A DNA stretch of 64,000 bases from Cytobacillus dafuensis. Lineage in GTDB: Bacteria > Bacillota > Bacilli > Bacillales > Cytobacillaceae. This document shows positions 31,691-46,200 of this stretch, in pieces. The notes under the pieces were generated by a model. That model had not been told where the DNA came from. It saw only the letters and a list, made by a program, of their open reading frames with translations, and did not search any database. The position numbers and the translations under genes were made by a program. Position 1 is the first letter of the stretch. Each line of letters opens with the position of its first letter. Location: contig NZ_CP042593.1 in the NCBI RefSeq assembly GCF_007995155.1, positions 3,762,001-3,826,000 of the forward strand, read 5' to 3'.

Positions 31691-31728
31691 AGTCCAGAAA
31701 ACTGGACTGTATTCCAATTTTCTGGACT
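31691..31728. promoter_or_regulatory. Paired palindromes, probable activator binding sites
   Basis: AGTCCAGAAAACTGGACT (31691-31708) is a perfect palindrome. A second, weaker one (31711-31728, ending CTGGACT) has its centre 20 bp away, two helical turns. They lie about 180-200 bp upstream of the -24/-12 promoter, where sigma-54 activators bind. The block also touches the stop codon of the activator gene and could fold as its terminator. Confidence 0.6.
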
Positions 31729-33097
31729 AGAGATGAAAAATTCCGTATTTTTTTAATTTCTCATACATGGAAGACTTGCTAATACCCAATGCTTTTGCTG
31801 CTTCAATCTTGTCATCATTAAATTTATTTATACTTTGAATCAATACTCTTTTTTCTGTTTCCTCCAAAATTTCCTTTAGCTTTTTACTCCCAACGGGGAA
31901 AACCGATGATTCTTTTAAATAATCAGGCAAAGAATCTAATGATATGACCTCGTTGTTTGTAAGATGAACGGATGCTTCAATGACATTCTCAAGCTCTCTA
32001 ATATTTCCTGGCCAGCTATATTGAGTAAATCGCTCGAGTACTTCATCTTCAACAAAGCTTATTCGCTTCCCCGATTTTTTCGTAATTTTTTTGATAAAAT
32101 AATCGAGCAAAACCGGGATATCGTCCATTCTTTCACGTAATGGAGGAATCGTGAATGGAACGACATTAATCCGATAAAACAAGTCTTCACGAAATCTTTT
32201 TTCTTCCATCATTTTTTCCAGAGGGCGATTTGTGGCAGCAATAATTCGAACGTCTACGGATATAGACTCTGTGGACCCTATACTTTCAATTTCACCCTCT
32301 TGAATGACTCTTAACAGCTTTACTTGCATATTCAAGGGCATATCGCCAATTTCATCTAAAAATAAAGTTCCCCCATCAGCCAATTGGAATTTCCCTTTTT
32401 TTCCGCCTTTTTTTGCTCCAGTAAAGGCGCCTTCTTCATAGCCAAATAATTCAGACTCAAGAAGATTTTCAGGTATGGCCCCGCAGTTAATTTTCACAAA
32501 TGGCTGATGGCTTCGATTGCTTAATTGGTGGATGCTGTGTGCGAATAACTCTTTGCCAGTTCCACTCTCACCACGGATAAGAACTGAGATATCGCTTGCT
32601 GCAATCATCTTTACTTTTTCCTTAAGACTTTCAATTTCTTTTGATTTCCCTAGCAGATCATCCAGGCTATATTTCACACTGCGATCAATATCTTGAATAT
32701 AGCTTTGAATCTTTGTTAGCATGCTTTTTACATGGCTATTCATTTTCATCCATTCCCTTGTGTCACGAAAGAACACAGTACCAAAAGCTCCAACCACCTG
32801 CCCATTAGATAAGATCGGAATACGGTTTGCAATCATATAATTCCCTTTTATGTATTGAAGGTCAGCGACCTCTTCTTTTCCTGTAGCAGCAACAATATGC
32901 ATGCGGGAATTTTCAATGACATTTGAGACATGTACACCAAGAACCTTCTCTCGTTCAACCTCTAAAAACTCACAATAGTTTTTGTTTATGTAAATGATTT
33001 TTCCTTTATTATCAACAACTACTAGCCAACCAAAAGCATTTTCCACAATTGTTTCAACAATATCAATAGGTATATCTAAAAGTGCGCTTCTCATCAT
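31727..33097 (-). CDS. PAS-domain sigma-54-dependent transcriptional activator
   Basis: A 456-aa enhancer-binding protein: PAS sensor (about 10-115, WLVVVDNKGKIIYINKNYCEFL), central AAA+ domain with Walker A GESGTGKE, the sigma-54 contact motif GAFTGA and Walker B TLFLDEIGD, and a Fis-type HTH at the end (AAKALGISKSSMYEKLKK). Family includes RocR and BkdR. The neighbouring permease and dehydrogenase with a sigma-54 promoter are its likely targets; the PAS ligand may be 3-hydroxybutyrate or a derivative, which is inference. Confidence 0.92.
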   Translation of the reverse strand: MMRSALLDIPIDIVETIVENAFGWLVVVDNKGKIIYINKNYCEFLEVEREKVLGVHVSNVIENSRMHIVAATGKEEVADLQYIKGNYMIANRIPILSNGQVVGAFGTVFFRDTREWMKMNSHVKSMLTKIQSYIQDIDRSVKYSLDDLLGKSKEIESLKEKVKMIAASDISVLIRGESGTGKELFAHSIHQLSNRSHQPFVKINCGAIPENLLESELFGYEEGAFTGAKKGGKKGKFQLADGGTLFLDEIGDMPLNMQVKLLRVIQEGEIESIGSTESISVDVRIIAATNRPLEKMMEEKRFREDLFYRINVVPFTIPPLRERMDDIPVLLDYFIKKITKKSGKRISFVEDEVLERFTQYSWPGNIRELENVIEASVHLTNNEVISLDSLPDYLKESSVFPVGSKKLKEILEETEKRVLIQSINKFNDDKIEAAKALGISKSSMYEKLKKYGIFHL

Positions 33098-35272: not shown

Positions 35273-35309
35273 GAAAACACCGTACAAGTCTCATTTGTAC
35301 AGTGTTTTC
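35273..35309 (-). terminator. Terminator of the ccm-nrf operon
   Basis: GAAAACACCGTACAA (35273-35287) pairs with TTGTACAGTGTTTTC (35295-35309) with one mismatch, ending in a T-rich run on the minus strand, 18 nt after nrfA. Confidence 0.85.
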
Positions 35310-35327: not shown

Positions 35328-36761
35328 TTATTTTTTCGGAGCAGGCTGTTGAGGTGGGAAATATCCATTAATTACATGCTCTTTCTTTTTCGGATTTTCC
35401 TTCTCTTCTAAAACAGCCTTCTTCGCTTTTTCTATCTCTTTATTTAATTCTTCTAGATTTACGCCTTTCTTTGCAAGCTCCTCAGTAGCAATTTGAATCG
35501 CTTTATTCGACTCATCACTAGAGATTTTCAATGAATCCATTGCTCCTTGCGGATTATGGAAGCCTGCAGCACTTTCAGCGGCAACAATATCCCAGTACCA
35601 TTGTCCTTTACGTACATGTTCTTGTGCTTCTTTTATTTTCTCTTCACTTACTCCAGAAGTGATCATTTTATTTACATAATAGTGTGAAGAAATAGAAATA
35701 TCCTCAGCTGAATGTAATGCCTTCATATGTGTATCCTGGATGCTTACAACACGGTCTTTGAGATCATCAAGGTCGCGGTTGCTATGACAGGTTGCACAAG
35801 ATTTCTCCATAGTTTTAAGTGGTGATTGCCACCAGTGAGAACTAATTTTCTTTTTACCGTCAGCACGCTCATATGGCATATGACAATCAGCACAGCTTAC
35901 ACCGGCTTTTCCATGAGGACCTTCCATATGTGTTTCAAAATCCGGATGCTGTGCCTTTAACATCGGAGTACCTGAAACATTATGAACCCAATCTTTTTCA
36001 AATCCTCTGTCTTTAGCCACAGTATCATAGTATTCATACATATTTTCTGGCTTAAAGCCATTTGCCCATGGGAATGTAACCTCCCCATTTTCTGGTGCAA
36101 AATAATACTCTACGTGACATTGACCACATACATAGCTTCTCATTTCATTTTTCGTCGGGTTTGACATGTCAACACCTTTAGATTCCATTGCTTTAATAAA
36201 GCTTGGACGAGTGATGCGAAGGTCCATTGTTTCAGGATCATGGCAGTCAGAGCAACCGATTGGAGAGTGTCCCATCGACTCCGCCTTTGGCCAAACGACA
36301 TCATTGAAGCTTCCACCCCAATATTCATCGCCCATTTCTTCAATCATTTGCGGAACTGCTGTTGATTTACATGTTAAGCAAGATCCAATTGATTTATCTG
36401 TAATTCGCATGGTTGATCGAATGTCTTCATTTGCATAAACATGTCCTCGATCCTCGTTGTAATCAGTAGCAAATCCATATCCGTTAAAAAGAATCGGTAA
36501 GTACGGTTCTTTATCTTCATCGAATTTACTTCTTTTTACAGAACCACTGTATTTCGTATCTTCCTCTTTTGCATTTTTCTGATAGCTGTCATATTGAAGC
36601 GGAAATAAATCCTTAAACGCTTCATTACTAATCTCATCCTTTGACAGACCAGTTTTATCAGAACTTGCTTCAGTACTCGCATTGTCTGAACTTGAACAGC
36701 CTGAGATAATGAGCATGACAGCAGCCAGGAATAAAAATGTCCATCGATAAGTCCTAGCCAT
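35328..36761 (-). CDS. nrfA: Ammonia-forming cytochrome c552 nitrite reductase NrfA
   Basis: A 477-aa pentahaem enzyme reducing nitrite to ammonium with six electrons. Signal peptide with lipobox ISGC (19-22), so it is membrane-anchored outside the cell. Haem motifs in the NrfA order: catalytic CLTCK (128-132), then CSDCH (170), CGQCH (212), CADCH (290), CATCH (322). Conserved distal residues fit: Y in CHVEYY and H in FETHMEGPHG. It overlaps nrfH by 8 nt and ends the ccm-nrf unit. The lysine-ligated haem needs special maturation, which the adjoining Ccm genes may provide. Confidence 0.96.
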   Translation of the reverse strand: MARTYRWTFLFLAAVMLIISGCSSSDNASTEASSDKTGLSKDEISNEAFKDLFPLQYDSYQKNAKEEDTKYSGSVKRSKFDEDKEPYLPILFNGYGFATDYNEDRGHVYANEDIRSTMRITDKSIGSCLTCKSTAVPQMIEEMGDEYWGGSFNDVVWPKAESMGHSPIGCSDCHDPETMDLRITRPSFIKAMESKGVDMSNPTKNEMRSYVCGQCHVEYYFAPENGEVTFPWANGFKPENMYEYYDTVAKDRGFEKDWVHNVSGTPMLKAQHPDFETHMEGPHGKAGVSCADCHMPYERADGKKKISSHWWQSPLKTMEKSCATCHSNRDLDDLKDRVVSIQDTHMKALHSAEDISISSHYYVNKMITSGVSEEKIKEAQEHVRKGQWYWDIVAAESAAGFHNPQGAMDSLKISSDESNKAIQIATEELAKKGVNLEELNKEIEKAKKAVLEEKENPKKKEHVINGYFPPQQPAPKK

Positions 36762-37287
36762 TATTCATCGTACCTCCTTTAGTATCTAACAATTCTCCTG
36801 ATTTAGGTGGTTTATAGAAATCTTCTGTTTTAAAGCCTTTGCCATGCGGGATTGCCTGGTGGCAGCTTGAACAGCTATCCTTTGCATCATGAGAAACATT
36901 ATCTAATGTGCTCTCATGGCAATTAATGCAGTTTTGATTGACGGCTTTTTTTGAATCTTCGGTCGTTAGCAGTACCTCAGGTATTTTTTCAGAACCGAGC
37001 GTATTGTAATACACATGTCCAATACCTGATTTTGCTTTAAACACTAACTTCCCTGCTAATGTTTCGTGAGGCAAGTGACAATCACTGCAAGCTAGCTTTG
37101 CATGCGTTGAATCTCCATGAGATTCATATACATTCGTCATAATGTGACAGCTTTGACAGAAATCTGCAGAATCTGTATAGGCAAATGTTTTAACTGTAAC
37201 GACAGAGACAATAATTCCCACAAATACTCCAATCATAATTAAGAGCTTTTTATCGATGGCTAATAGCTTTTTTAGCATTTTCTTCAC
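36754..37287 (-). CDS. nrfH: NrfH tetrahaem quinol dehydrogenase
   Basis: A 177-aa NapC/NirT-family protein with one N-terminal membrane anchor (about 14-36) and four haem sites: CQSCH (44), CSDCH (67), CINCH (120), CSSCH (139). It passes electrons from menaquinol to NrfA. It overlaps nrfA by 8 nt. Its ribosome site (AAAGGGAGGTGAAG) is strong. It follows the ResA-like gene by 45 nt. Confidence 0.95.
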   Translation of the reverse strand: MKKMLKKLLAIDKKLLIMIGVFVGIIVSVVTVKTFAYTDSADFCQSCHIMTNVYESHGDSTHAKLACSDCHLPHETLAGKLVFKAKSGIGHVYYNTLGSEKIPEVLLTTEDSKKAVNQNCINCHESTLDNVSHDAKDSCSSCHQAIPHGKGFKTEDFYKPPKSGELLDTKGGTMNNG

Positions 37288-37332
37288 CTCCCTTTTTTTA
37301 TCTATATATATTAAAACGCTGATAACAGCATT

Positions 37333-37845
37333 TTAATCCTGGGAATTGTGAATGTTTTCGATAAGTTCAATTAAATGTTCCTTAGTCGTAGGGCCAGAAA
37401 ATCTCTCAACAATTATTCCATTTTCATCAATAATGATCGTTTCAGGCTGGCCAATAACATTATATTTCTTAGATACATCCTCAGTTGTATCTAGTAAATA
37501 GCTCAATTTGGAATTTGATTCCTCAATGTATTTGTTCATTCTCTTTGTTGTTTCGCCTTTTGCGATTATGAAAAGCTCTGCATTTTTATATTCCGCTCCA
37601 AATGCTTCTAGCTCTGGAGCTTCATCAATACAAGGCTGGCACCATGTAGCAAAAAAGTTTAATACAACAATCTTTCCTTTAGAGTCAGATAATTTATGTT
37701 CTTTTCCATACATATCCTTAAGGGTATAATCAAAGGCTGTATCGCCTGGATTTGCTGATACCTTTTCGCTTAATCCGCTTATTAGAACACCGATGATCCC
37801 AATAGTAATTATGATGATGATAGTTGGAACGAGTCTTTTCCTCAT
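37333..37845 (-). CDS. ResA/CcmG-like thiol-disulfide oxidoreductase
   Basis: A 170-aa membrane-anchored thioredoxin-fold protein (anchor 8-26) with the active site WCQPC in FFATWCQPCIDEAPEL. Such proteins reduce the cysteines of apocytochrome c before haem ligation (ResA in System II, CcmG/DsbE in System I). In this operon it stands between ccmD and nrfH and is the likely CcmG equivalent. ResA has CEPC; the Q is a small difference. Confidence 0.9.
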   Translation of the reverse strand: MRKRLVPTIIIIITIGIIGVLISGLSEKVSANPGDTAFDYTLKDMYGKEHKLSDSKGKIVVLNFFATWCQPCIDEAPELEAFGAEYKNAELFIIAKGETTKRMNKYIEESNSKLSYLLDTTEDVSKKYNVIGQPETIIIDENGIIVERFSGPTTKEHLIELIENIHNSQD

Positions 37846-37861
37846 TCATTTCACCCGCTTT

Positions 37862-37993
37862 TTAATGTTCTGACTTCCAATCCTCAAGGAGCTGAAGCTC
37901 TTTTTTCAAGTCTTTTTGACGCTTTCCTAGAATAAAAATATATCCTGCAAGTAATCCCCAAATAACTGAATATGCTATAAATAAATATTGCAT
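37862..37993 (-). CDS. ccmD: CcmD-like small membrane protein
   Basis: A 43-aa protein: one membrane helix (YLFIAYSVIWGLLAGYIFIL) followed by a basic tail (GKRQKDLKKELQLL), the CcmD pattern. ATG at 37993 has AGGAGGCGG 7 nt upstream; the gene sits between ccmC (16 nt) and the ResA-like gene (17 nt). CcmD assists release of holo-CcmE from CcmC-haem-CcmE. Confidence 0.88.
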   Translation of the reverse strand: MQYLFIAYSVIWGLLAGYIFILGKRQKDLKKELQLLEDWKSEH

Positions 37994-38008
37994 TGTTTCC
38001 GCCTCCTA

Positions 38009-38719
38009 TTAACTTGCTAATTTTTCAATTACTTTTGCTTTTGTTTTTTTTACAGTCAAACGCATTTTTTCAATTTCTGTTCCTTTACGCATTAAAAAAA
38101 TATAGAAAAGGGTAATTGTACCGATGCAGAAAAGAAGAGTTATAAGCATCTCTGGCTCGATTCCTCCACCCTTTTGGTTTTTCCCCTCTCCAAAAACAAT
38201 TGGATGCAGCTTTGTGTTCCACCAGCGAATGGCCATGAAGACAATTGGAACATTAATACATCCAATAATCCCAAACACGGCTGAAAGCTTTGCGATTTTT
38301 TCCCATGCCCCTTCCATTCTTCTTACGAACAAATAGGCTACATAAATAAACCACAGTATTAATGTTGTGACGAGTCGAGGCTCCCATGTCCACCATGTGT
38401 TCCAAGCTGATTTCCCCCAAATCATTCCGGTAACCAATGCGATTGTAGTAAAGAGAACACCGGTTTCGGCCGAAACTCCTGCATGAATAAATCTAGATTC
38501 TGTTGGTCTTCTTAATGTTAAAACACTATAAAAACCGACTACAAAGAATGCTAAGAAAGCGACCCAAGCAGAGCCTACATGAAAATAGAAGATTTTCTGG
38601 GTAACGCCCATTTGTTTTTCAATTGGTGACCAAATAAACACCAGATACAATGCAATAAAGAAGGCGGGGACGAGACAAAGAAATAATATACGATCAATCA
38701 ATGAAGACTGTTGTTTCAT
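38009..38719 (-). CDS. ccmC: CcmC haem handling protein
   Basis: A 236-aa membrane protein with six helices and the tryptophan-rich motif WGKSAWNTWWTWEPRLV (periplasmic haem-binding WWD-type loop, with E in place of D). Histidines in SAWVAF-proximal FHVGSA and RFIHAGVS are probable haem ligands. It loads haem on CcmE. ATG overlaps the end of ccmB by one base (38719). Confidence 0.92.
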   Translation of the reverse strand: MKQQSSLIDRILFLCLVPAFFIALYLVFIWSPIEKQMGVTQKIFYFHVGSAWVAFLAFFVVGFYSVLTLRRPTESRFIHAGVSAETGVLFTTIALVTGMIWGKSAWNTWWTWEPRLVTTLILWFIYVAYLFVRRMEGAWEKIAKLSAVFGIIGCINVPIVFMAIRWWNTKLHPIVFGEGKNQKGGGIEPEMLITLLFCIGTITLFYIFLMRKGTEIEKMRLTVKKTKAKVIEKLAS

Positions 38720-39402
38720 TAAGATCCCTCCATTAAAAACTCAAATAAGAAAAAACATGCGGCAAAGAAGAGCAAATCATATCCAACCATTAGCTGAAGC
38801 CAAGATAATGCATCTTCTATTCCATCTTGTCCAAGAACAATTCTCGTTGCTTGAACAGCAGCAATCATCAAAGGACTGAGCAAAGGAAGCAGCAATACAG
38901 GGAGCAGCATCTCACTATTCTTTGCATTTGCTGCTAATGCTGCCAAGAAGGTGCCAACAGTAATAAATCCAAATGTAGCTATAAACACAATCAAAAGGAA
39001 CCAAACCCATTCGCCTGTAAAACGATAATCAAATAGTATAAATAAAACAGGAATACTAATGATCTGCGTAATGATGACAAATAGAAAATTTGCAATGACT
39101 TTGCCAAGATAAATACTCGATAAATCGATTGGGGCTACCTTTAACCCTGTTAAGCTTGCATTCTCATTCTCTAATAAAAATGAACGATTCAACCCTAGTA
39201 GCCCTGAAAAAATAGTAATGACCCAAATAAGACCTGGAATAATCGCTTTTACAGTGTTATTTGTAGGATCAAATGCAAAACTAAAAATGAGTATGACAAG
39301 GCTAGAAAAGATGACCATCATGCCGATTGTCTGCTTTGATTTCAATTCATTTCGTATATCCTTACTAGCAATTGCTAAAGCGTCAGAGAGAATCGTCATC
39401 AT
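38719..39402 (-). CDS. ccmB: CcmB haem exporter permease
   Basis: A 227-aa protein with six membrane segments, CcmB family (SDALAIASKDIRNELKSKQTI at the N-terminus, MLLPVLLLPLLSPLMIA near 170). With CcmA it forms the ABC module that releases holo-CcmE. Overlaps ccmA by 20 nt. Confidence 0.92.
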   Translation of the reverse strand: MMTILSDALAIASKDIRNELKSKQTIGMMVIFSSLVILIFSFAFDPTNNTVKAIIPGLIWVITIFSGLLGLNRSFLLENENASLTGLKVAPIDLSSIYLGKVIANFLFVIITQIISIPVLFILFDYRFTGEWVWFLLIVFIATFGFITVGTFLAALAANAKNSEMLLPVLLLPLLSPLMIAAVQATRIVLGQDGIEDALSWLQLMVGYDLLFFAACFFLFEFLMEGS

Positions 39403-40111
39403 ATCCGCTCACCGCCTTGTCATACCATTTTTTCAAACCAGCTAAACCTGCCTGCCTATCAATGCTCCGAGACTCAGCAGCTTTTCCTTTATTAAGGATA
39501 ATCGCTCTTTCACAAACTTTAATGACTTGTTCAAAATCATGAGAGATTAATAGTATAGCAATGCCTTTCCTCTGCTTCTCTAGTATAAGATTATTAAGCA
39601 AACTGATTGCTTCTTGATCTAATCCCGTATGTGGCTCATCAAGTAAAAGCACTTCTGGATCAGCTAGCAAAACACGAGCAATTGCTAGCCGCTGTACCAT
39701 CCCTCTTGAAAATGAACGAATAGGAATATCTTTAAAATAATGGAGTCCCACTGCTTTTAATAGCTCCATAGCTTTTTCTTCTCTATTTTTTACTTTGTAT
39801 AATTTTGCATAAAAGAGTAAATTCTCAAGTGGTGTTAAAGCCGTATATAGAAAGGATTCATGCCCTAAATATCCAATTTTTTGCTTCAATAATTGTGATT
39901 TTTTCTTTATTAGCTCTCCATTTAAATATATGTCTCCACTCGTGGGCTGCATCAGCCCTGCTGCAAGCTTAAAGAATGTACTTTTCCCAGCTCCATTCGG
40001 ACCAAGTATGGCTACACTTTCTCCCGGCTCGATAGCTAGTGAAAGATTTCTAATGATGATCCTATCTCCAATAATTTTTGTCATATTCTTTAATTCAAGC
40101 ATTTTATCCAA
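39383..40111 (-). CDS. ccmA: CcmA ABC transporter ATP-binding protein
   Basis: A 242-aa ATPase: Walker A GPNGAGKST (36-44), signature FSRGMVQRLAIARVL, Walker B EVLLLDEPHTGLD, H-loop ISHDFEQ. It overlaps ccmB by 20 nt and the small upstream gene by 8 nt, so translation of this block is coupled. Confidence 0.93.
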   Translation of the reverse strand: MDKMLELKNMTKIIGDRIIIRNLSLAIEPGESVAILGPNGAGKSTFFKLAAGLMQPTSGDIYLNGELIKKKSQLLKQKIGYLGHESFLYTALTPLENLLFYAKLYKVKNREEKAMELLKAVGLHYFKDIPIRSFSRGMVQRLAIARVLLADPEVLLLDEPHTGLDQEAISLLNNLILEKQRKGIAILLISHDFEQVIKVCERAIILNKGKAAESRSIDRQAGLAGLKKWYDKAVSGYDDDSL

Positions 40112-40457
40112 CTCTTTCTTGAGTGAATCGAAGCAGTTCTTTTTTCACTGTATCAAGGTGCTGCTTGTATTCCTCAATGATTTTGGAATATTGTAAATCC
40201 GTTACTTCTCCTAGCTTCTTATTCCTTTCAAGCTCTGTCATTTGTTCTTCAATGACTGCCTTCTTTTTTAAAAGAAGCTGAAATTGCATCTCTTCATAAT
40301 CATGTTCATGTGTGTTCTTTCTTCTTTTTATAAGCTTGAAAATCAAGACAGCAATTAATACAATCAATACGAAGTGAGGATTAATTGTATTTAAAATTGG
40401 CGTACCCAGCCAAAAGGATACTAGCCATTCTGGGTGGAAAGGCGGTATTTCACTCAT
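40104..40457 (-). CDS. Small membrane/coiled-coil protein of the ccm operon
   Basis: A 117-aa protein with one membrane helix (about 28-43, FVLIVLIAVLIFKL) and a charged coiled coil (LLKKKAVIEEQMTELERNKKLGEVTDLQYSKIIEEYKQ split over 57-100). The segment LGEVTDLQYSKIIEEY recalls the short CcmI N-terminal motif. Not recognised as a named family. Overlaps both neighbours by a few bases. Confidence 0.78.
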   Translation of the reverse strand: MSEIPPFHPEWLVSFWLGTPILNTINPHFVLIVLIAVLIFKLIKRRKNTHEHDYEEMQFQLLLKKKAVIEEQMTELERNKKLGEVTDLQYSKIIEEYKQHLDTVKKELLRFTQERVG

Positions 40458-40819
40458 CCTTCCATCTGTCCTTTCTGCTTGCGAAGTTTATTTAGTTCCT
40501 TTAAAATTTCCCGTTCAATTACGTCATTTGTTTTATTTCCCTTTGAATGACTAGATCTTTCGTTACTTTCTATTTTCATATAGCTTGCAGCAAGTGATTG
40601 ATATCGGTTCTTCATCGACTCAAAATCCTCTTTGGTAATTTTCTTCATCAAATAATCCATTTCAAGCTCATTAACTGCTGCATAAATCATTTCCAATGGC
40701 ATTTCTTCTTCGTTTCCCTCAGCTAATACCATTTTTTCATTGTTAAAAAAGGGGGAAATAATAAAATAAATACAACTTATAACAATCGCCGAACCGACAA
40801 TAAGAAACACATAGTCCAT
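40454..40819 (-). CDS. CcmI-like N-terminal-domain protein
   Basis: A 121-aa protein with an N-terminal membrane helix (4-23) and a stretch ELEMDYLMKKITKEDFESMK resembling the cytoplasmic loop of CcmI. The periplasmic TPR part of CcmI that binds apocytochrome is missing. It overlaps the next gene by 4 nt. The role as a CcmI remnant is inference. Confidence 0.75.
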   Translation of the reverse strand: MDYVFLIVGSAIVISCIYFIISPFFNNEKMVLAEGNEEEMPLEMIYAAVNELEMDYLMKKITKEDFESMKNRYQSLAASYMKIESNERSSHSKGNKTNDVIEREILKELNKLRKQKGQMEG

Positions 40820-40834
40820 ATAAATCCCTCCCTT

Positions 40835-41347
40835 TTAAAAATGCCTTCGCCTTTCCTCTTCAAATGTTTGTTCAATAATTTTCATTTCAGTTTCCGGTAG
40901 TTCATTTGTTAATAACGTCTCTGTACTTGCATTTTTATTTGTTAGTTTCTTAATTCCGTATCCAACACCAATGCCACCTAATATGAAACCAATTACTGGC
41001 ATGATCCAGGCAATCATGCCACTTCCTTCAGTTCCAGGGGCTCTTAATGCAGCTTGACCGTACTCGTCAACATATGACTGCAAAATTTCTTTTTCTGAGG
41101 TCCCTTCATTCAGTGCCTCTAACACTTCATCATAGTAGACCTTTTTGATTGTGCATGTTGAAATATCATGGTCTGCATGTCCTTGCATATCAAGCTTGTT
41201 TATAACAGAGTGAAACTCTTTAGAATTATAGGTGTAGGTTGATTTTGCACTTATTGTATTTACATTTATTCCTAGTTGGAGGAATACAAACGAGACAAGC
41301 AGCACAGATGAATATTTTATTAGCTTTCTTCTCGAGATTGTTCTCAT
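40835..41347 (-). CDS. ccmH: CcmH-like protein with a single cysteine
   Basis: A 170-aa protein: signal/anchor at 11-33, a CcmH-like helical domain (KVYYDEVLEALNEGTSEKEI, YVDEYGQAALRAPG) and a second membrane helix (111-130). The usual CcmH LRCxxCQ motif is absent; only C65 (DISTCTIKK) remains, so it cannot form the intramolecular disulfide used for apocytochrome reduction. ATG 41347 overlaps the ccmF stop (ATGA) and has GGGGGG before it; the longer frame to 41452 lies inside ccmF and is rejected. Confidence 0.82.
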   Translation of the reverse strand: MRTISRRKLIKYSSVLLVSFVFLQLGINVNTISAKSTYTYNSKEFHSVINKLDMQGHADHDISTCTIKKVYYDEVLEALNEGTSEKEILQSYVDEYGQAALRAPGTEGSGMIAWIMPVIGFILGGIGVGYGIKKLTNKNASTETLLTNELPETEMKIIEQTFEEERRRHF

Positions 41348-43323
41348 TTTTGCCCCCCAGCCTGCTGACTTTTTACTCTTAAGGAGGAGGTTGTTTTGCC
41401 TCCAAGTAATGCAATAGCAGTTCCTATTAGCATTATGATTCCTCCTGCCCAAATCCAGCTAACGAATGGGTTTATTTTTACGACGAATGTGACCTTATCC
41501 TTACTTTCCCAAGAACTGAGAACAACGTATAAATCCTCTTTCCAGTTGGATTTAATGGCTACTTCTGTTGAAGGCTCTGGCCATGTAGCATAAAATATCT
41601 TTTCTGGTTTAATGCTGCCATCGTCTTTTCCTTTATAGGTAATATCAAGATTTGCATAAACGATTCCATTCCCATTTTTATTTGTTTCCGCAAGATTCTT
41701 GAAAGTAAGGTCATAATGACCAACCTTAAAGGTCTCACCTTTATTTACTGTTTTCATTACCTCTTGAGAATAAGCCTGGGAAGAAATGACGCCAACCGCA
41801 ATAATGGCAATGCCGATGTGAACGATGTAGCCTCCATATCTGCGCTGATTTTTTCGAGTCAATTGTATGGCTGCTTTCAAAAAGCCTTCTTTCGTCGCTT
41901 TCCTGCGTGCACAAATTCCACGCCAAAATTCTGTTAAGTGAACAGCAAACATAAATACCGTAACGGTTAAGCCGATAATGGCGTATAAGCCCTTTACTCC
42001 GATTGCGACAAGGATGATAGCAAAAGCAATTGCTGTTAATAAAGGAGCCAGCATGTTTTTAATGAATCGATCAAATACTGCCTTTTGCCATGCTATTAAA
42101 GGACAAATGGCCATCAAAAGGATTAGTGCCAGCATAATCGGTGCCATTACTTTATTAAAATATGGTGCACCAACATTTACTTTTGTGCCTGTAATCGTTT
42201 CTGAAATTAATGGATACATCGTACCCCAAAACACTGCAAAAGCAGCTGCAACAAGGATAAAGTTATTCAAAAGAAAGCTGCTTTCCTTAGAAAAATAGGC
42301 TTCGATTGGTTTACTCTCTTTTTTAATAAGCTGATAGCGAGTTGCTACAACATAAATCGCAAAGAGCATCATAAATGCCATAAATACTAAGAAGTAAGTG
42401 CCAAGGTTACTGTCTCCAAAAGCATGAACACTTGTTAAAATTCCGCTTCGCACTAAAAATGTCCCAAACAAGGAAAGGATATAAGATAAAATAATCAAGC
42501 TTAAATTCCATGTTCTAAGCATTCCTTTTCGCTCTTGTATCATAACGGAGTGCAGAAAAGCTGAAACAGTTAGCCAAGGCAAGAAGGAAGCATTTTCCAC
42601 TGGGTCCCACGCCCAATAGCCGCCCCAGCCTAATTCAAGATAGGCCCACCAGCCGCCTATGATATTGCCAAGTGTTAAGAATAGCCATGCAGTTAAAGTC
42701 CAACGTCTCGTTAATTTAATCCACTGTGCGTCCATCTTTTTCATGAGTAAAGCTGCGATGGCATATGCGAATGGAACAGCTAATCCAACATAACCCATAT
42801 AGAGCGTAAGTGGATGGATAACCATACCAGGATTTTGGAGCATTGGATTTAATCCCTTACCATCAGCAGGTATTGTATCTGTCATTTCAAATGGATTTGC
42901 ATTGAAAACCATCACAATATAGAAAAATAGCATATTTAGCAATAAAATAATGGATACATAGGGAATCATACTGTTTTGTTTTTTCTTATTAAAAACGATA
43001 ATCGCTGCATAGATGCTTAACAAAAAGGTCCAAAGCAATAATGACCCTGCATTTCCAGCCCAAAATGCGGCTAACTTATAGATTAAAGGCAGCTGACTAT
43101 TTGTATATGCAGCTACATACTGATATTGAAACTGACTTGTACCTAGAATATAGAATAATAGAAAGGCTGCAATACTCGTTACAAAAGCAAGGGACATGAT
43201 CCCTCCTCTTGCACTTTCAAGCCACCTTCTATCTTTTCTTTTCAGTCCGACTATGTTAGCAGCTAATGAGTATAAAGATATGACGATTCCTAAGATGAGA
43301 GCAATATTACCAATTAAATACAT
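41344..43323 (-). CDS. ccmF: CcmF haem lyase subunit
   Basis: A 659-aa membrane protein with about 15 segments. The WWD haem-binding domain is clear: ELGWGGYWAWDPVENASFLPW (about 230-250, where the family has WGGxWxWDPVEN). Conserved periplasmic histidines are seen in MVIHPLTLYMGY and SVHAFGDS. It performs thioether bond formation between haem from CcmE and the apocytochrome. Starts 20 nt after ccmE and overlaps ccmH by 4 nt. Confidence 0.95.
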   Translation of the reverse strand: MYLIGNIALILGIVISLYSLAANIVGLKRKDRRWLESARGGIMSLAFVTSIAAFLLFYILGTSQFQYQYVAAYTNSQLPLIYKLAAFWAGNAGSLLLWTFLLSIYAAIIVFNKKKQNSMIPYVSIILLLNMLFFYIVMVFNANPFEMTDTIPADGKGLNPMLQNPGMVIHPLTLYMGYVGLAVPFAYAIAALLMKKMDAQWIKLTRRWTLTAWLFLTLGNIIGGWWAYLELGWGGYWAWDPVENASFLPWLTVSAFLHSVMIQERKGMLRTWNLSLIILSYILSLFGTFLVRSGILTSVHAFGDSNLGTYFLVFMAFMMLFAIYVVATRYQLIKKESKPIEAYFSKESSFLLNNFILVAAAFAVFWGTMYPLISETITGTKVNVGAPYFNKVMAPIMLALILLMAICPLIAWQKAVFDRFIKNMLAPLLTAIAFAIILVAIGVKGLYAIIGLTVTVFMFAVHLTEFWRGICARRKATKEGFLKAAIQLTRKNQRRYGGYIVHIGIAIIAVGVISSQAYSQEVMKTVNKGETFKVGHYDLTFKNLAETNKNGNGIVYANLDITYKGKDDGSIKPEKIFYATWPEPSTEVAIKSNWKEDLYVVLSSWESKDKVTFVVKINPFVSWIWAGGIIMLIGTAIALLGGKTTSSLRVKSQQAGGQK

Positions 43324-43343
43324 GTTGTCACCAGCCTGTCTAA

Positions 43344-43793
43344 TTAGTCCTGCTTATTTTCATTCATTTTTTTATGCATTCCTGCATCATAATTATTTGG
43401 ATCTTCGCCTTCATATTTGGAAGGGCATTTTGTCTGGACCTTTTCCGCTTCAAATACTCCATCTTCCCTTAAAAAGCCCTCTACAATAACAATCACATCA
43501 TCAGAAAAATTATCAGGCTTGACTCCTTCGTATCTTATAGGGAGATATTTTGTTTTTCCTTCTTCAAAAATTTCAAATTTCAGCTCAATTTTGTCTGCAT
43601 TCCATTTAATTGAATCCTCTTTTAATAATCCTTGAGTTAATACATATTCATCTTGGTAAATGTCTTTTTTTGTCATTAATTCCTCGATTGAAACTTCTTT
43701 ACTACCAGCACTTGGCATTGTTGAAAAAAACATGATCATAATGGCTACTGCTGCAAGTGATAAACCAAACATAATTTTTTTATTTTTAGACAT
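43344..43793 (-). CDS. ccmE: CcmE haem chaperone, CxxxY type
   Basis: A 149-aa protein with an N-terminal anchor (7-27) and an OB-fold. The covalent haem site, HxxxY in most bacteria, is C123-P-S-K-Y127 here (TKCPSKYEG). CxxxY forms are known from archaea and a few bacteria such as Desulfovibrio (System I*). It follows the upstream membrane protein by 3 nt and precedes ccmF by 20 nt. Confidence 0.92.
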   Translation of the reverse strand: MSKNKKIMFGLSLAAVAIMIMFFSTMPSAGSKEVSIEELMTKKDIYQDEYVLTQGLLKEDSIKWNADKIELKFEIFEEGKTKYLPIRYEGVKPDNFSDDVIVIVEGFLREDGVFEAEKVQTKCPSKYEGEDPNNYDAGMHKKMNENKQD

Positions 43794-43796
43794 TTT

Positions 43797-44765
43797 TTAT
43801 CCTCCTATTTTCTTTAATAATTCTTTGTATTCTTCCTCTGTAATGCTTCCTTCGAGGAGCATCGTTCTTAATCTTGACTTCTTAAGCTCAAATTCATTTA
43901 CTTTATTCGTTTCATTTTTCTTTACATTTGGTTTCTTCTTCCTTTTTTTAAAAAAAATAACGAGAAGGATCGCTGAAAGTATGCTTATGCCCCCAACAAC
44001 AGAAATGGTTACTCCTATGGGAAGAGTTTCATTTTTTTTAACTGCTCCTTCTCCATGAGGAGAATTTCCAGCCATTTCTTCCATTAATTCTATTGTTGTC
44101 TTCGCTTCTGAACGATTATATTCGAGCTTAAACTCCTTTTCCTCATTAAGCTTCATCCCCTGATATTGATACAAAAACATATTCATCCCGTATCCATTTT
44201 CTTGATGCGAATCTGCCGCAGGAGTCAATGTAAAGTTTTCGGTTTTTAATGGTTCTAGAAAAATCACACTTACTAGCCCGATATCAGTGAAGCTTTTAAA
44301 ATGATAAGACAGTGATTTTTTATCTTCATCTGTTTTAATCTGGTCTGAATAATATTCAATTACAAATTTATAAGCTTCCTGTGGTTGAATATCCTCACTC
44401 GTTTCCCAAGAAATGATGCCTGCTTTCTTATCGATTTTATAATCAATTTCATTCATTTCAGATAAGTCACGATTGTAGTCAGCTACAAAGCCAATACGAA
44501 AATTCTTTTCATTCACTGGCAGCGGAATTTCAATCTGTCCCTTCTGCGGGTTTTCTGTCGTATTTTTTAAAGTTCCATGATAGCCAATTAACAAGGAAGG
44601 AGTTGATTTTTCTTTATCCTTAGGGTGCAAAGCATATTCTGGCATTACTTGTATGTTTAATTCCTCCAGTTTTAAGATTGGGTTTTGTGTTTCAGCAAAG
44701 AAATTTCTCGGAAAGCTTAGTACGAGGAAAGCTATCCATATCCAAGACAGAATAATTTTTTTCAT
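43797..44765 (-). CDS. Secreted/membrane protein heading the ccm-nrf operon
   Basis: A 322-aa protein with signal peptide (1-24), extracellular beta-rich part (about 30-230), one membrane helix (about 248-271, ISVVGGISILSAILLVIFF) and a cytoplasmic basic tail ending in a SHOCT-like motif (RLRTMLLEGSITEEEYKELLKKI). I do not recognise a named family. First gene of the unit and 3 nt from ccmE, so probably a cytochrome maturation accessory, perhaps a haem or apocytochrome holdase. No cysteine or CxxCH is present. Confidence 0.75.
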   Translation of the reverse strand: MKKIILSWIWIAFLVLSFPRNFFAETQNPILKLEELNIQVMPEYALHPKDKEKSTPSLLIGYHGTLKNTTENPQKGQIEIPLPVNEKNFRIGFVADYNRDLSEMNEIDYKIDKKAGIISWETSEDIQPQEAYKFVIEYYSDQIKTDEDKKSLSYHFKSFTDIGLVSVIFLEPLKTENFTLTPAADSHQENGYGMNMFLYQYQGMKLNEEKEFKLEYNRSEAKTTIELMEEMAGNSPHGEGAVKKNETLPIGVTISVVGGISILSAILLVIFFKKRKKKPNVKKNETNKVNEFELKKSRLRTMLLEGSITEEEYKELLKKIGG

Positions 44766-44844: not shown

Positions 44845-44860
44845 TGTGAACATTTTCACA
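44845..44860. promoter_or_regulatory. FNR-type palindrome, proximal
   Basis: TGTGAACATTTTCACA fits TGTGA-N6-TCACA exactly. Its centre is about 87 nt upstream of the operon ATG and 115 bp from the distal box. No clear -10 lies at the class II distance, so it may modulate rather than activate. Confidence 0.65.
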
Positions 44861-44924: not shown

Positions 44925-44975
44925 CTACCCTATTTAAACCATTTCAACGAATGTCTATCTGTGATTCAAATCACA
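44925..44975 (-). promoter_or_regulatory. Probable FNR-activated promoter of the ccm-nrf operon
   Basis: TGTGATTCAAATCACA (44960-44975) is a perfect TGTGA-N6-TCACA site. A TTTAAATA element on the minus strand (44931-44938) stands about 33 bp downstream of its centre, giving the -41.5 geometry of class II FNR promoters. Confidence 0.72.
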
Positions 44976-45589: not shown

Positions 45590-45811
45590 GATAAAGTGAA
45601 ACTTCCATCATTGGGGGTTTACTTTCATCCCCCACTGATGGTTAGTTGCGGCCCACACGAAGTGGGTCACGCAGACGTTGCCACACGATGTGGCGCTTTT
45701 AGTCTGTGTTCATTTTATAGGGCTTTACGGGCAGTTGATCCCCCACTTAGGTTTCTTTGATTTTCTCGCAACCTTGTAGTGGGGTCTTACTGCCCGTTAA
45801 TCTGCGATAAA
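45590..45811 (+). repeat. Interspersed repeat family 1, copy C
   Basis: Begins GATAAAGTGAAACTTCCATC, hairpin 1 (CCATCATTGGGGG / CCCCCACTGATGG), a middle module with GCCACACGATGTGGC and GCCCACACGAAGTGGGTC palindromes, hairpin 2, and ends TCTGCGATAAA. Lies upstream of ytzC, head to head. Confidence 0.92.
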
Positions 45812-45927
45812 GAATGGGTCTTTTCAGAAGCAAATTGCTTCATCATTAGTTTGTTCATATTTCTTTTTCCTATCTAGACAATTTACTGGCAAATTTAGCT
45901 TTGGATTACATTCATACTTCATGATAA

Positions 45928-46145
45928 GATAAAGTGAAACTTCCATCAGTGGGGGTTTTTTTCATCCCCCACTGATGGTTAGTTGCGGCCCACAGGAAGT
46001 GGGTCACGCAGACGTTGCCACACGTTGTGGCGCTTTTAGTCTGTGTTCATTTTACGGGCTTTTACGGGCAGTTGTCCCCCACCTATCTTCCTCGCATCTC
46101 TCTCAATCTTGAGGTGGGGGTCTTACTGCCCGTTAATGCGGGATA
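45928..46145 (+). repeat. Interspersed repeat family 1, copy D
   Basis: Same module order as copy C, in the same orientation, about 117 bp further on; hairpin 1 is the perfect form CCATCAGTGGGGG / CCCCCACTGATGG. Its 3' end is truncated to TTAATGCGGGATAAA and joined to a remnant. Confidence 0.92.
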
Positions 46146-46200
46146 AAGTGAATCTTCAATCATTGGGGTAGGGATCTTACTGCCCGTTAATCTGCGATAA
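46140..46200 (+). repeat. Repeat family 1, remnant D2
   Basis: GGATAAAGTGAATCTTCAAT joined directly to TCTTACTGCCCGTTAATCTG; only the two ends of the element remain, with the interior deleted. In tandem with copy D and sharing GATAAA with it. Confidence 0.85.

Follow-up and report, generated by a model that had tools for sequence, protein, structure and literature searches.

In Escherichia coli, the nrf-linked NrfEFG proteins form a CcmF/CcmH/CcmI-like set beside the general cytochrome c maturation (Ccm) system CcmABCDEFGH, and NrfF is dispensable (PMC3601427). In Wolinella, dedicated help for the CXXCK haem of the NrfHA nitrite reductase comes from NrfI (PMC12285233), a ResBC/CcsBA-type synthase of System II; the same source, a 2025 review, assigns NrfHA complexes to System II and describes recognition of the CXXCK haem as unclear. 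System I*, known from archaea, Desulfovibrio and others, combines CcmA, CcmB, CcmC and CcmF with a CcmE bearing CPSKY or CXXXY (PMC3601427, PMC9084895), the cysteine of CXXXY being required in Methanosarcina (PMC9084895). It also occurs in firmicutes, and about one third of System I* bacteria have CcmH (PMC3601427). For Bacillus azotoformans, a link of nrfAH to ccmEFHABC was printed in 2012 (PMC3475470), and for Desulfitobacterium NrfAH is listed with the Ccm unnamed (PMC3306737). Here we analyze a stretch of 64,000 nucleotides from Cytobacillus dafuensis (the window; G000:C1:3762001-3826000 of a single-contig 4.9-Mb genome), in which a complete System I* apparatus and NrfHA form one unit in a genome that also has ResBC.

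The unit occupies the minus strand from 44765 to 35328 in the order Orf322-CcmE-F-H-Ia-Ib-A-B-C-D-ResA-NrfH-NrfA, as determined from open reading frame (ORF) coordinates and Pfam/NCBIfam profiles (Table 1). Gaps or overlaps between its genes do not exceed 45 nucleotides, the largest lying between ResA and NrfH (with the CcmH start taken as the ATG at 41347). These results bear out the original prediction, made from the letters of the window, of a complete System I* packed tightly with NrfHA on one strand, every gene named there having been identified; left out of it were a name for the 322-residue first gene, which lies inside its coordinates, and the loss of the CcmH cysteine pair described below. 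All core System I components (CcmA, CcmB, CcmC, CcmE and CcmF) are present, the CcmE cysteine in CXXXY replaces the histidine, as in System I*, and NrfA, with CXXCK and four CXXCH sites, adjoins a NapC-family NrfH that scores 115 bits against the NrfH model TIGR03153, under its cut-off of 134.2. The nearest solved chain to CcmF is 6zmq, itself a CcmF (E 2.7e-110), and alignment with E. coli CcmF and NrfE revealed the WWD motif together with the conserved periplasmic histidines. Profile searches returned no family match over cut-off for Orf322, for whose fold there was also no weighty sequence match, and no convincing one for CcmIa; neither CcmIa nor CcmIb gave a TPR match, such that a CcmI with a TPR domain or an NrfG-type TPR protein was not found in the unit.

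Table 1. Genes of the nrf-linked unit and adjacent sequence signals, in window coordinates
Feature	Position	Strand	Remarks
FNR/CRP-type palindrome TGTGA-N6-TCACA, perfect	44960..44975	.	upstream of unit
Second FNR/CRP-type palindrome TGTGA-N6-TCACA, perfect	44845..44860	.	upstream of unit
Orf322	43797..44765	-	first gene; ectodomain, one transmembrane helix, short CcmI/SHOCT-like C-terminal hairpin (topology by eye)
CcmE haem chaperone	43344..43793	-	81 bits; CPSKY (Cys variant, System I*)
CcmF haem lyase, N clade	41344..43323	-	CcmF_C 230 bits, Cytochrom_C_asm 135 bits; WWD motif
CcmH	40835..41347	-	41 bits; one cysteine (ISTCTIKK)
CcmIa small transmembrane protein	40454..40819	-	CcmI-like hairpin by eye
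CcmIb	40104..40457	-	weak CcmI match TIGR03142, 20 bits, under cut-off 29.3
CcmA, haem exporter ATPase	39383..40111	-	TIGR01189 149 bits, over cut-off 131.6
CcmB, haem exporter membrane subunit	38719..39402	-	120 bits
CcmC, haem delivery to CcmE	38009..38719	-	Cytochrom_C_asm 95 bits; TWWTWEPR motif by eye
CcmD-family small protein	37862..37993	-	TIGR04391 50 bits, cut-off 24
ResA/CcmG-like thioredoxin, candidate thiol reductant	37333..37845	-	AhpC-TSA 87 bits; WCQPC
NrfH tetrahaem quinol dehydrogenase	36754..37287	-	PF03264 55 bits; 4 CXXCH
NrfA pentahaem nitrite reductase	35328..36761	-	PF02335 425 bits; CLTCK + 4 CXXCH; lipoprotein-type signal by eye
Terminator-like hairpin, 15 pairs, T-rich tail	35273..35309	-	directly 3' of nrfA

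Relatives were compared in a family sample of 193 genomes and a class sample of 398, three of the ten NrfA genomes of the latter being common to both, and in two overlapping sets of loci, a first set and a named set of the best 80 NrfA loci fetched with 10-kb flanks. The N class holds the whole unit, with 13/13 genes in 15/15 fully read loci (window included) plus two contig-end fragments, which rules out chance or mis-annotation as the source of the unit. The N' class (13 loci, two genera) retains Orf322-F-H-Ia-NrfHA and lacks E, A, B, C and D; CcmIb was called in 4/13 and ResA in 5/13, where matches of CcmA and ResA below 110 bits were dropped to exclude other ATPases and thioredoxins, so that absence of ResA from the other eight is not implied. 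The N'' class comprises 44 loci with nrfHA and no linked ccm genes, 37 of which have Orf322 adjoining nrfHA, one a broken piece and six no trace of it. That NrfA might do without CXXCK where Ccm is unlinked is ruled out, the first haem site having lysine in 77/77 NrfA and in 81/81 of the named set. The S class (74 loci) is a separate Orf322-E-F-H-Ia-Ib-A-B-C-D-ResA locus without nrf, opened by a paralogue of Orf322, and S' (four loci) is the same without A-D. CcmA, B, C and D are present in all 14 S loci fetched at 20 kb, most others having been fetched only to CcmIb. Nine 20-kb S/S' loci read gene by gene lie between an efp-like gene and a spoIIIA-like run (by eye), and upstream of most of them stand genes for a PCYCGC lipoprotein and a dihaem cytochrome c (family assignment tested in L048); in L048 (3466-3819 and 8308-8904) this lipoprotein (PF13798) adjoins the S locus, and the S-type CcmH bears a similar-looking CTCGCG. 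Within the flanks of the named set, ccmE, ccmF and ccmA occur together at 33 of the best 80 loci, nrfHA preceding the ccm genes in five of these. Two nrfHA copies, one with linked CcmF-H-I and one bare, were seen in G014, Bacillus sp. DNRA2 (L178/L281, L066/L297). A record titled Chryseobacterium sp. ISL-80 (L257) holds a Bacillus-type N locus with an 81% identical NrfA and is probably a mislabelled assembly. In a congener of the window's species (G029, L042), the N locus is reduced to a remnant made up of the palindrome, a 30-residue Orf322 piece, CcmE and a CcmF fragment, and no NrfA was found in the genome.

Two proteins set nrf-linked loci apart from unlinked ones. The CcmH of the unit has a single cysteine in its mature part, an LRCXXC or NrfF-type redox pair being absent by alignment and cysteine counts, whereas S-type CcmH has five cysteines (C-X-C-G-C...C...C). 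The single-cysteine form was found in 29/30 nrf-linked loci of the first set and in 42/42 of the named set (L273 by eye), as compared to 0/75 unlinked loci, of which 73 have the five-cysteine form (L045 split over two frames), one (L189) has two cysteines and one (L188) is partly masked; no CcmH was called in 5/78 S/S' loci. In Evansella (L332) and Salipaludibacillus (L334), single-cysteine and five-cysteine CcmH even stand side by side. CcmIb measures 107-117 residues in N and N' and 308-359 in S and S', the copy of the unit being without the ectodomain of about 200 residues found in S-type copies, and every copy called in the named nrf-linked loci (34 loci) has a length of 107-134 residues. 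Because about one third of System I* bacteria have CcmH and the others lack it altogether, neither its presence nor its missing cysteine pair is a bar to System I*. We propose the single-cysteine CcmH as a counterpart of NrfF in role, an analogy in which the non-essential nature of NrfF in E. coli fits the degenerate CcmH of the unit.

The sole ResB match of the window's genome (G000:C1:3190049-3191413) lies in a resA-resB-resC-resD run (L084; the names ResA, ResC and ResD were assigned by eye on gene order and sequence). Absence of resBC elsewhere would, according to the original prediction, have made Ccm the general system; both genes were found, which argues otherwise and rules out Ccm as the only cytochrome c system of this genome. 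ResB is present in 184/193 family genomes, and the nine without it all belong to genus g20; CcmE was not found in any of these nine, none of which is among the 113 family genomes with CcmE. NrfA was found in 94 (leaving out G067, whose 22.6-bit match is under cut-off), 93 of them with CcmE, and all 93 are ResB-positive. The sole NrfA genome in which CcmE was not found, G153, is a fragmented assembly (490 contigs, 91% complete). In the 94 NrfA genomes, CcmE lies within 12 kb of NrfA in 36, far away on the same contig in 28 and on another contig in 29. CcmE without NrfA occurs in 20 family genomes, the G029 remnant among them. In the class sample, NrfA was found in ten genomes and CcmE in all ten, out of 34 CcmE genomes in total.

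Copy numbers point to a division within the apparatus. Whole-genome searches of 25 chosen genomes, with CcmB representing the exporter, revealed two CcmF in 20, of which 18 have a single CcmB over cut-off; G080 and G099 are the exceptions with two of each, and a second CcmB match in G018 and G023 is under cut-off. In the N' genomes (13/13) the single CcmB is some 5 kb away from the S-type CcmE, and in five others with two CcmF (G088, G091, G095, G096 and G191) it belongs to the N locus. The window's genome, G057, G128, G160 and G118 have one CcmF and one CcmB each, G118, an N'' genome, with an extra CcmH-like match at C97:86593 (34% identity). In G015, the sole CcmB has an in-frame stop and the S-type CcmF lies in two frames, which may be sequence error or decay. 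Because relatives with a second Ccm mostly keep two lyases and one exporter, these data suggest, for the nrf-linked Ccm, a lyase end fitted to its client and an exporter end that can be shared. We recognised no description of this split, or of single-cysteine CcmH in Bacilli, in full-text literature searches, which leave subscription journals mostly uncovered.

Upstream of the unit lie two palindromes, presumably FNR/CRP-type boxes, that are the only perfect ones in the window; with up to one mismatch the whole window has five matches as compared to a chance mean of 1.7, and 1/100 shuffles reaches five. Across relatives, the 400 bp preceding the first gene contain a perfect palindrome in 63/71 nrf loci (N 11/15, N' 13/13, N'' 39/43) versus 0/77 S/S' loci, and allowing one mismatch gave 69/71 versus 7/77. 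It is absent from the two contig-end N fragments, and loci from other families have it in 0/7, or in 2/7 with one mismatch. Anaerobic control by FNR probably governs the Ccm set and nrfHA together.

A second terminator-like hairpin (45124-45098) lies upstream of the unit, after the preceding gene. In the neighbourhood, a PAS-sigma54 activator (31727-33097; Sigma54_activat 251 bits) is encoded on the strand of the unit two genes downstream, after an MFS transporter, and two similar non-coding copies of about 190 bp (45600-46180, by eye) lie upstream of a DUF2524 gene.

To place the unit among described systems, CcmF was analyzed in quick trees with SH-like approximate likelihood ratio test (SH-aLRT) supports, which have long E. 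coli branches and a composition warning. N, N' and a sequence from another family (G471) form one clade (SH-aLRT 99), and S and S' another (98). N' CcmF falls in two places of the tree, which fits an origin of N' by two or more losses. The two E. coli proteins, NrfE and CcmF, group with each other (SH-aLRT 100), and N falls with the other Bacilli, and therefore the likeness of the nrf-linked Ccm to NrfEFG looks parallel, not inherited. The proposal that the unit stands in for NrfEFG or NrfI thus survives for NrfEFG as an analogy only, the CcmF not being an NrfE by tree. The N' loci share the E. coli pattern in keeping only the lyase end next to nrfHA. Compared to E. coli, however, N loci have the complete Ccm, exporter included, CcmE relies on cysteine, CcmH has one cysteine, TPR is absent, the electron donor is NrfH instead of NrfBCD, and CcmF stands outside the NrfE branch. 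The unit differs from System I* as described in adding a CcmH-family protein, a CcmD-family protein and a thioredoxin, in the presence of ResBC in the genome and in its tie to nrfHA. A ResB/CcsBA-type synthase such as NrfI is absent from the nrf unit, the only ResB match of the genome being the one in resABC and the ResB match of CcmF falling under cut-off. Schinkia (Bacillus) azotoformans (L323) shares the nrfHA-Ccm link, the single-cysteine CcmH and the short CcmIb but has nrfHA ahead of the ccm genes and a CcmF of the S clade, and Calidifontibacillus and Chengkuizengella likewise combine nrfHA first and S-clade CcmF with single-cysteine CcmH and short CcmIb. The excerpted text of the 2012 account (PMC3475470) deals with neither ResBC nor the CcmH change nor the shared exporter. 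A warning against inferring function from paralogy comes from Shewanella, where the ccmF2-nrfF operon has no role in maturation (PMC3769277).

We used PF03264 (NapC/NirT family) to survey candidate clients, counting matches, not proteins, per genome. NrfH is the only match in 29/30 genomes with N alone. The original prediction had called for a search for other multihaem cytochromes, and in the window's genome this uncovered a cluster (L082 7041-11235; G000:C1:988-992 kb) in which a pair of tetrahaem cytochromes (989.6-990.7 kb) is flanked on each side by an FAD_binding_2 protein, an arrangement resembling a quinol-fed flavin reductase; NrfHA is thus not the sole candidate client there. Genomes with an S locus (82, of which 78 by fetched loci and four placed there from position or genus) show two or more PF03264 matches beyond NrfH in 82/82. 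At 19 such places read, a 10-haem ORF was found in 16 and a 12-haem ORF in 18, usually joined by a TPR protein, an NHL-propeller protein (both tested for L346 only), and 6-haem and 7- or 8-haem proteins, with motifs all CXXCH in the loci read. Because S tracks this multihaem cluster, the S Ccm probably serves it, although common descent of the genomes confounds any assignment of clients from co-occurrence. The cluster (L346 5934-13774, L347, L349 and others; G128, G160, G068) has its genes in a row and looks like a set for extracellular electron transfer in Gram-positive Bacillaceae. Identity of its hexahaem protein with a nanowire of solved type is rejected, as solved structures gave no convincing match by sequence. 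PF03264 also occurs in three of the 80 genomes in which CcmE was not found: G123, G153 and G124, the last by a 12-haem gene with two stops. In G162 (L045 and L356), two genes, for the S-type CcmH and for the 10-haem protein, are each spread over two frames; these splits, like the interrupted gene of G124 (L339), reflect joint decay or sequence error.

From the genes, their order and motifs, co-occurrence, copy numbers and palindromes, we infer biochemical steps, clients and regulation as follows. The best explanation, which we regard as probable, is an nrf-linked System I* apparatus added to System II, with a client-fitted lyase end and a shareable exporter. CcmABC(D) would move haem outward and charge the cysteine of CcmE with it. 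CcmF, the CcmH without redox pair, the two TPR-less CcmI-like proteins and Orf322 would constitute the lyase end, fitted to NrfH and NrfA with the CXXCK site included, while the ResA-like protein would act as thiol reductant. The second Ccm of relatives would apparently be for the 10- and 12-haem cytochromes. The original prediction of a dedicated role in maturing NrfA is partly supported. Dedication of the N unit to NrfHA is well supported by linkage, palindromes and the absence of other NapC/NirT proteins from most genomes with N alone, and the G029 remnant without NrfA points the same way. Its dedication to the CXXCK haem is plausible; that part of the prediction is narrower than the data, in that a full Ccm may load all nine NrfHA haems. 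That Bacilli independently evolved an NrfEFG counterpart, with a lyase end fitted to NrfHA (perhaps to CXXCK), a dispensable CcmH redox job and a shared exporter, is a tentative suggestion that falls a little short of an even chance.

Several observations weigh against such dedication. The 44 N'' loci, all with a CXXCK NrfA, have S-type Ccm only elsewhere (fetched or searched), except for one with an N' copy elsewhere and G153 with no Ccm found. Neobacillus-type genomes in particular keep a CXXCK NrfA with S-type Ccm only, and N. vireti (G160), called catalytic for dissimilatory nitrate reduction to ammonium (PMC10653820), has NrfHA and S with one CcmF and one CcmB. According to the N'' genomes, another Ccm is probably able to do NrfA's haem work. 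An exclusive role of Ccm for NrfA in the family is ruled out by 19 S-type genomes with CcmE and without NrfA, and Orf322 is weakened as an indispensable NrfA factor by its absence or breakage beside nrfHA in 7/44 N'' loci. Four of 15 N loci are without a perfect palindrome, and one nrf-linked locus (L186) has a two-cysteine CcmH with a long CcmIb. The window's own genome is the sole exception among those with N alone, having an extra PF03264 match. G123 has a 5-haem NapC/NirT-family protein with CcmE not found, and some multihaem proteins may be able to do without Ccm. Finally, genomes are related by ancestry, and all co-occurrence counts given here are non-independent events and carry no phylogenetic correction.

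These points leave room for Ccm in Bacilli being a general multihaem apparatus, with ResBC for mono- and dihaem proteins, the nrf link reflecting the commonest client and CXXCK playing no special part. PF03264 is indeed present in 112/113 CcmE genomes (the other being the G029 remnant) versus 3/80 without CcmE, and the 19 S genomes without NrfA have the multihaem cluster, all-CXXCH in the loci read. However, a general apparatus sits badly with two lyases kept apart where both are present though the exporter is shared, with nrf-linked CcmH and CcmIb consistently differing from unlinked ones even beside an S-clade CcmF, and with the 5-haem protein of G123, and we consider it unlikely, if worth keeping in mind. 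That linked ccm genes have dropped out step by step in N' and N'' shows linkage to be unneeded, as expected if the unit were a cassette, inherited or acquired, with a mostly redundant Ccm part, ResBC being able to mature NrfHA and the linkage only historical. Yet the disappearance of linked ccm genes is paired with an S-type Ccm at another site, 93/94 NrfA genomes keep CcmE, and NrfA with ResBC alone is unseen except in the fragmented G153, which makes redundancy very improbable. Least credible of all is that the CcmF is a true NrfE descendant that arrived with proteobacterial nrf genes: its best NCBIfam match is the NrfE model TIGR03145, but at 501 bits, far under the cut-off of 927, and the pairing of E. 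coli NrfE with E. coli CcmF, quick tree and long branches notwithstanding, places it with other Bacilli.

In the sampled Bacilli, NrfA goes with System I* in genomes that also have ResBC, unlike the System II assignment of the 2025 review. If the client-fitted, exporter-sharing arrangement is true, N with its entire Ccm, N' with just the lyase end and N'' without linked ccm genes form a natural dissection series in living relatives, with the exporter at whichever locus retains it, and this series makes the parts carrying client choice testable. The single-cysteine CcmH likewise tests the need of CcmH thiol reduction for the NrfHA client. Beyond nitrite reduction, our study draws attention to a multihaem cluster in Gram-positive bacteria that is accompanied by a Ccm of its own.

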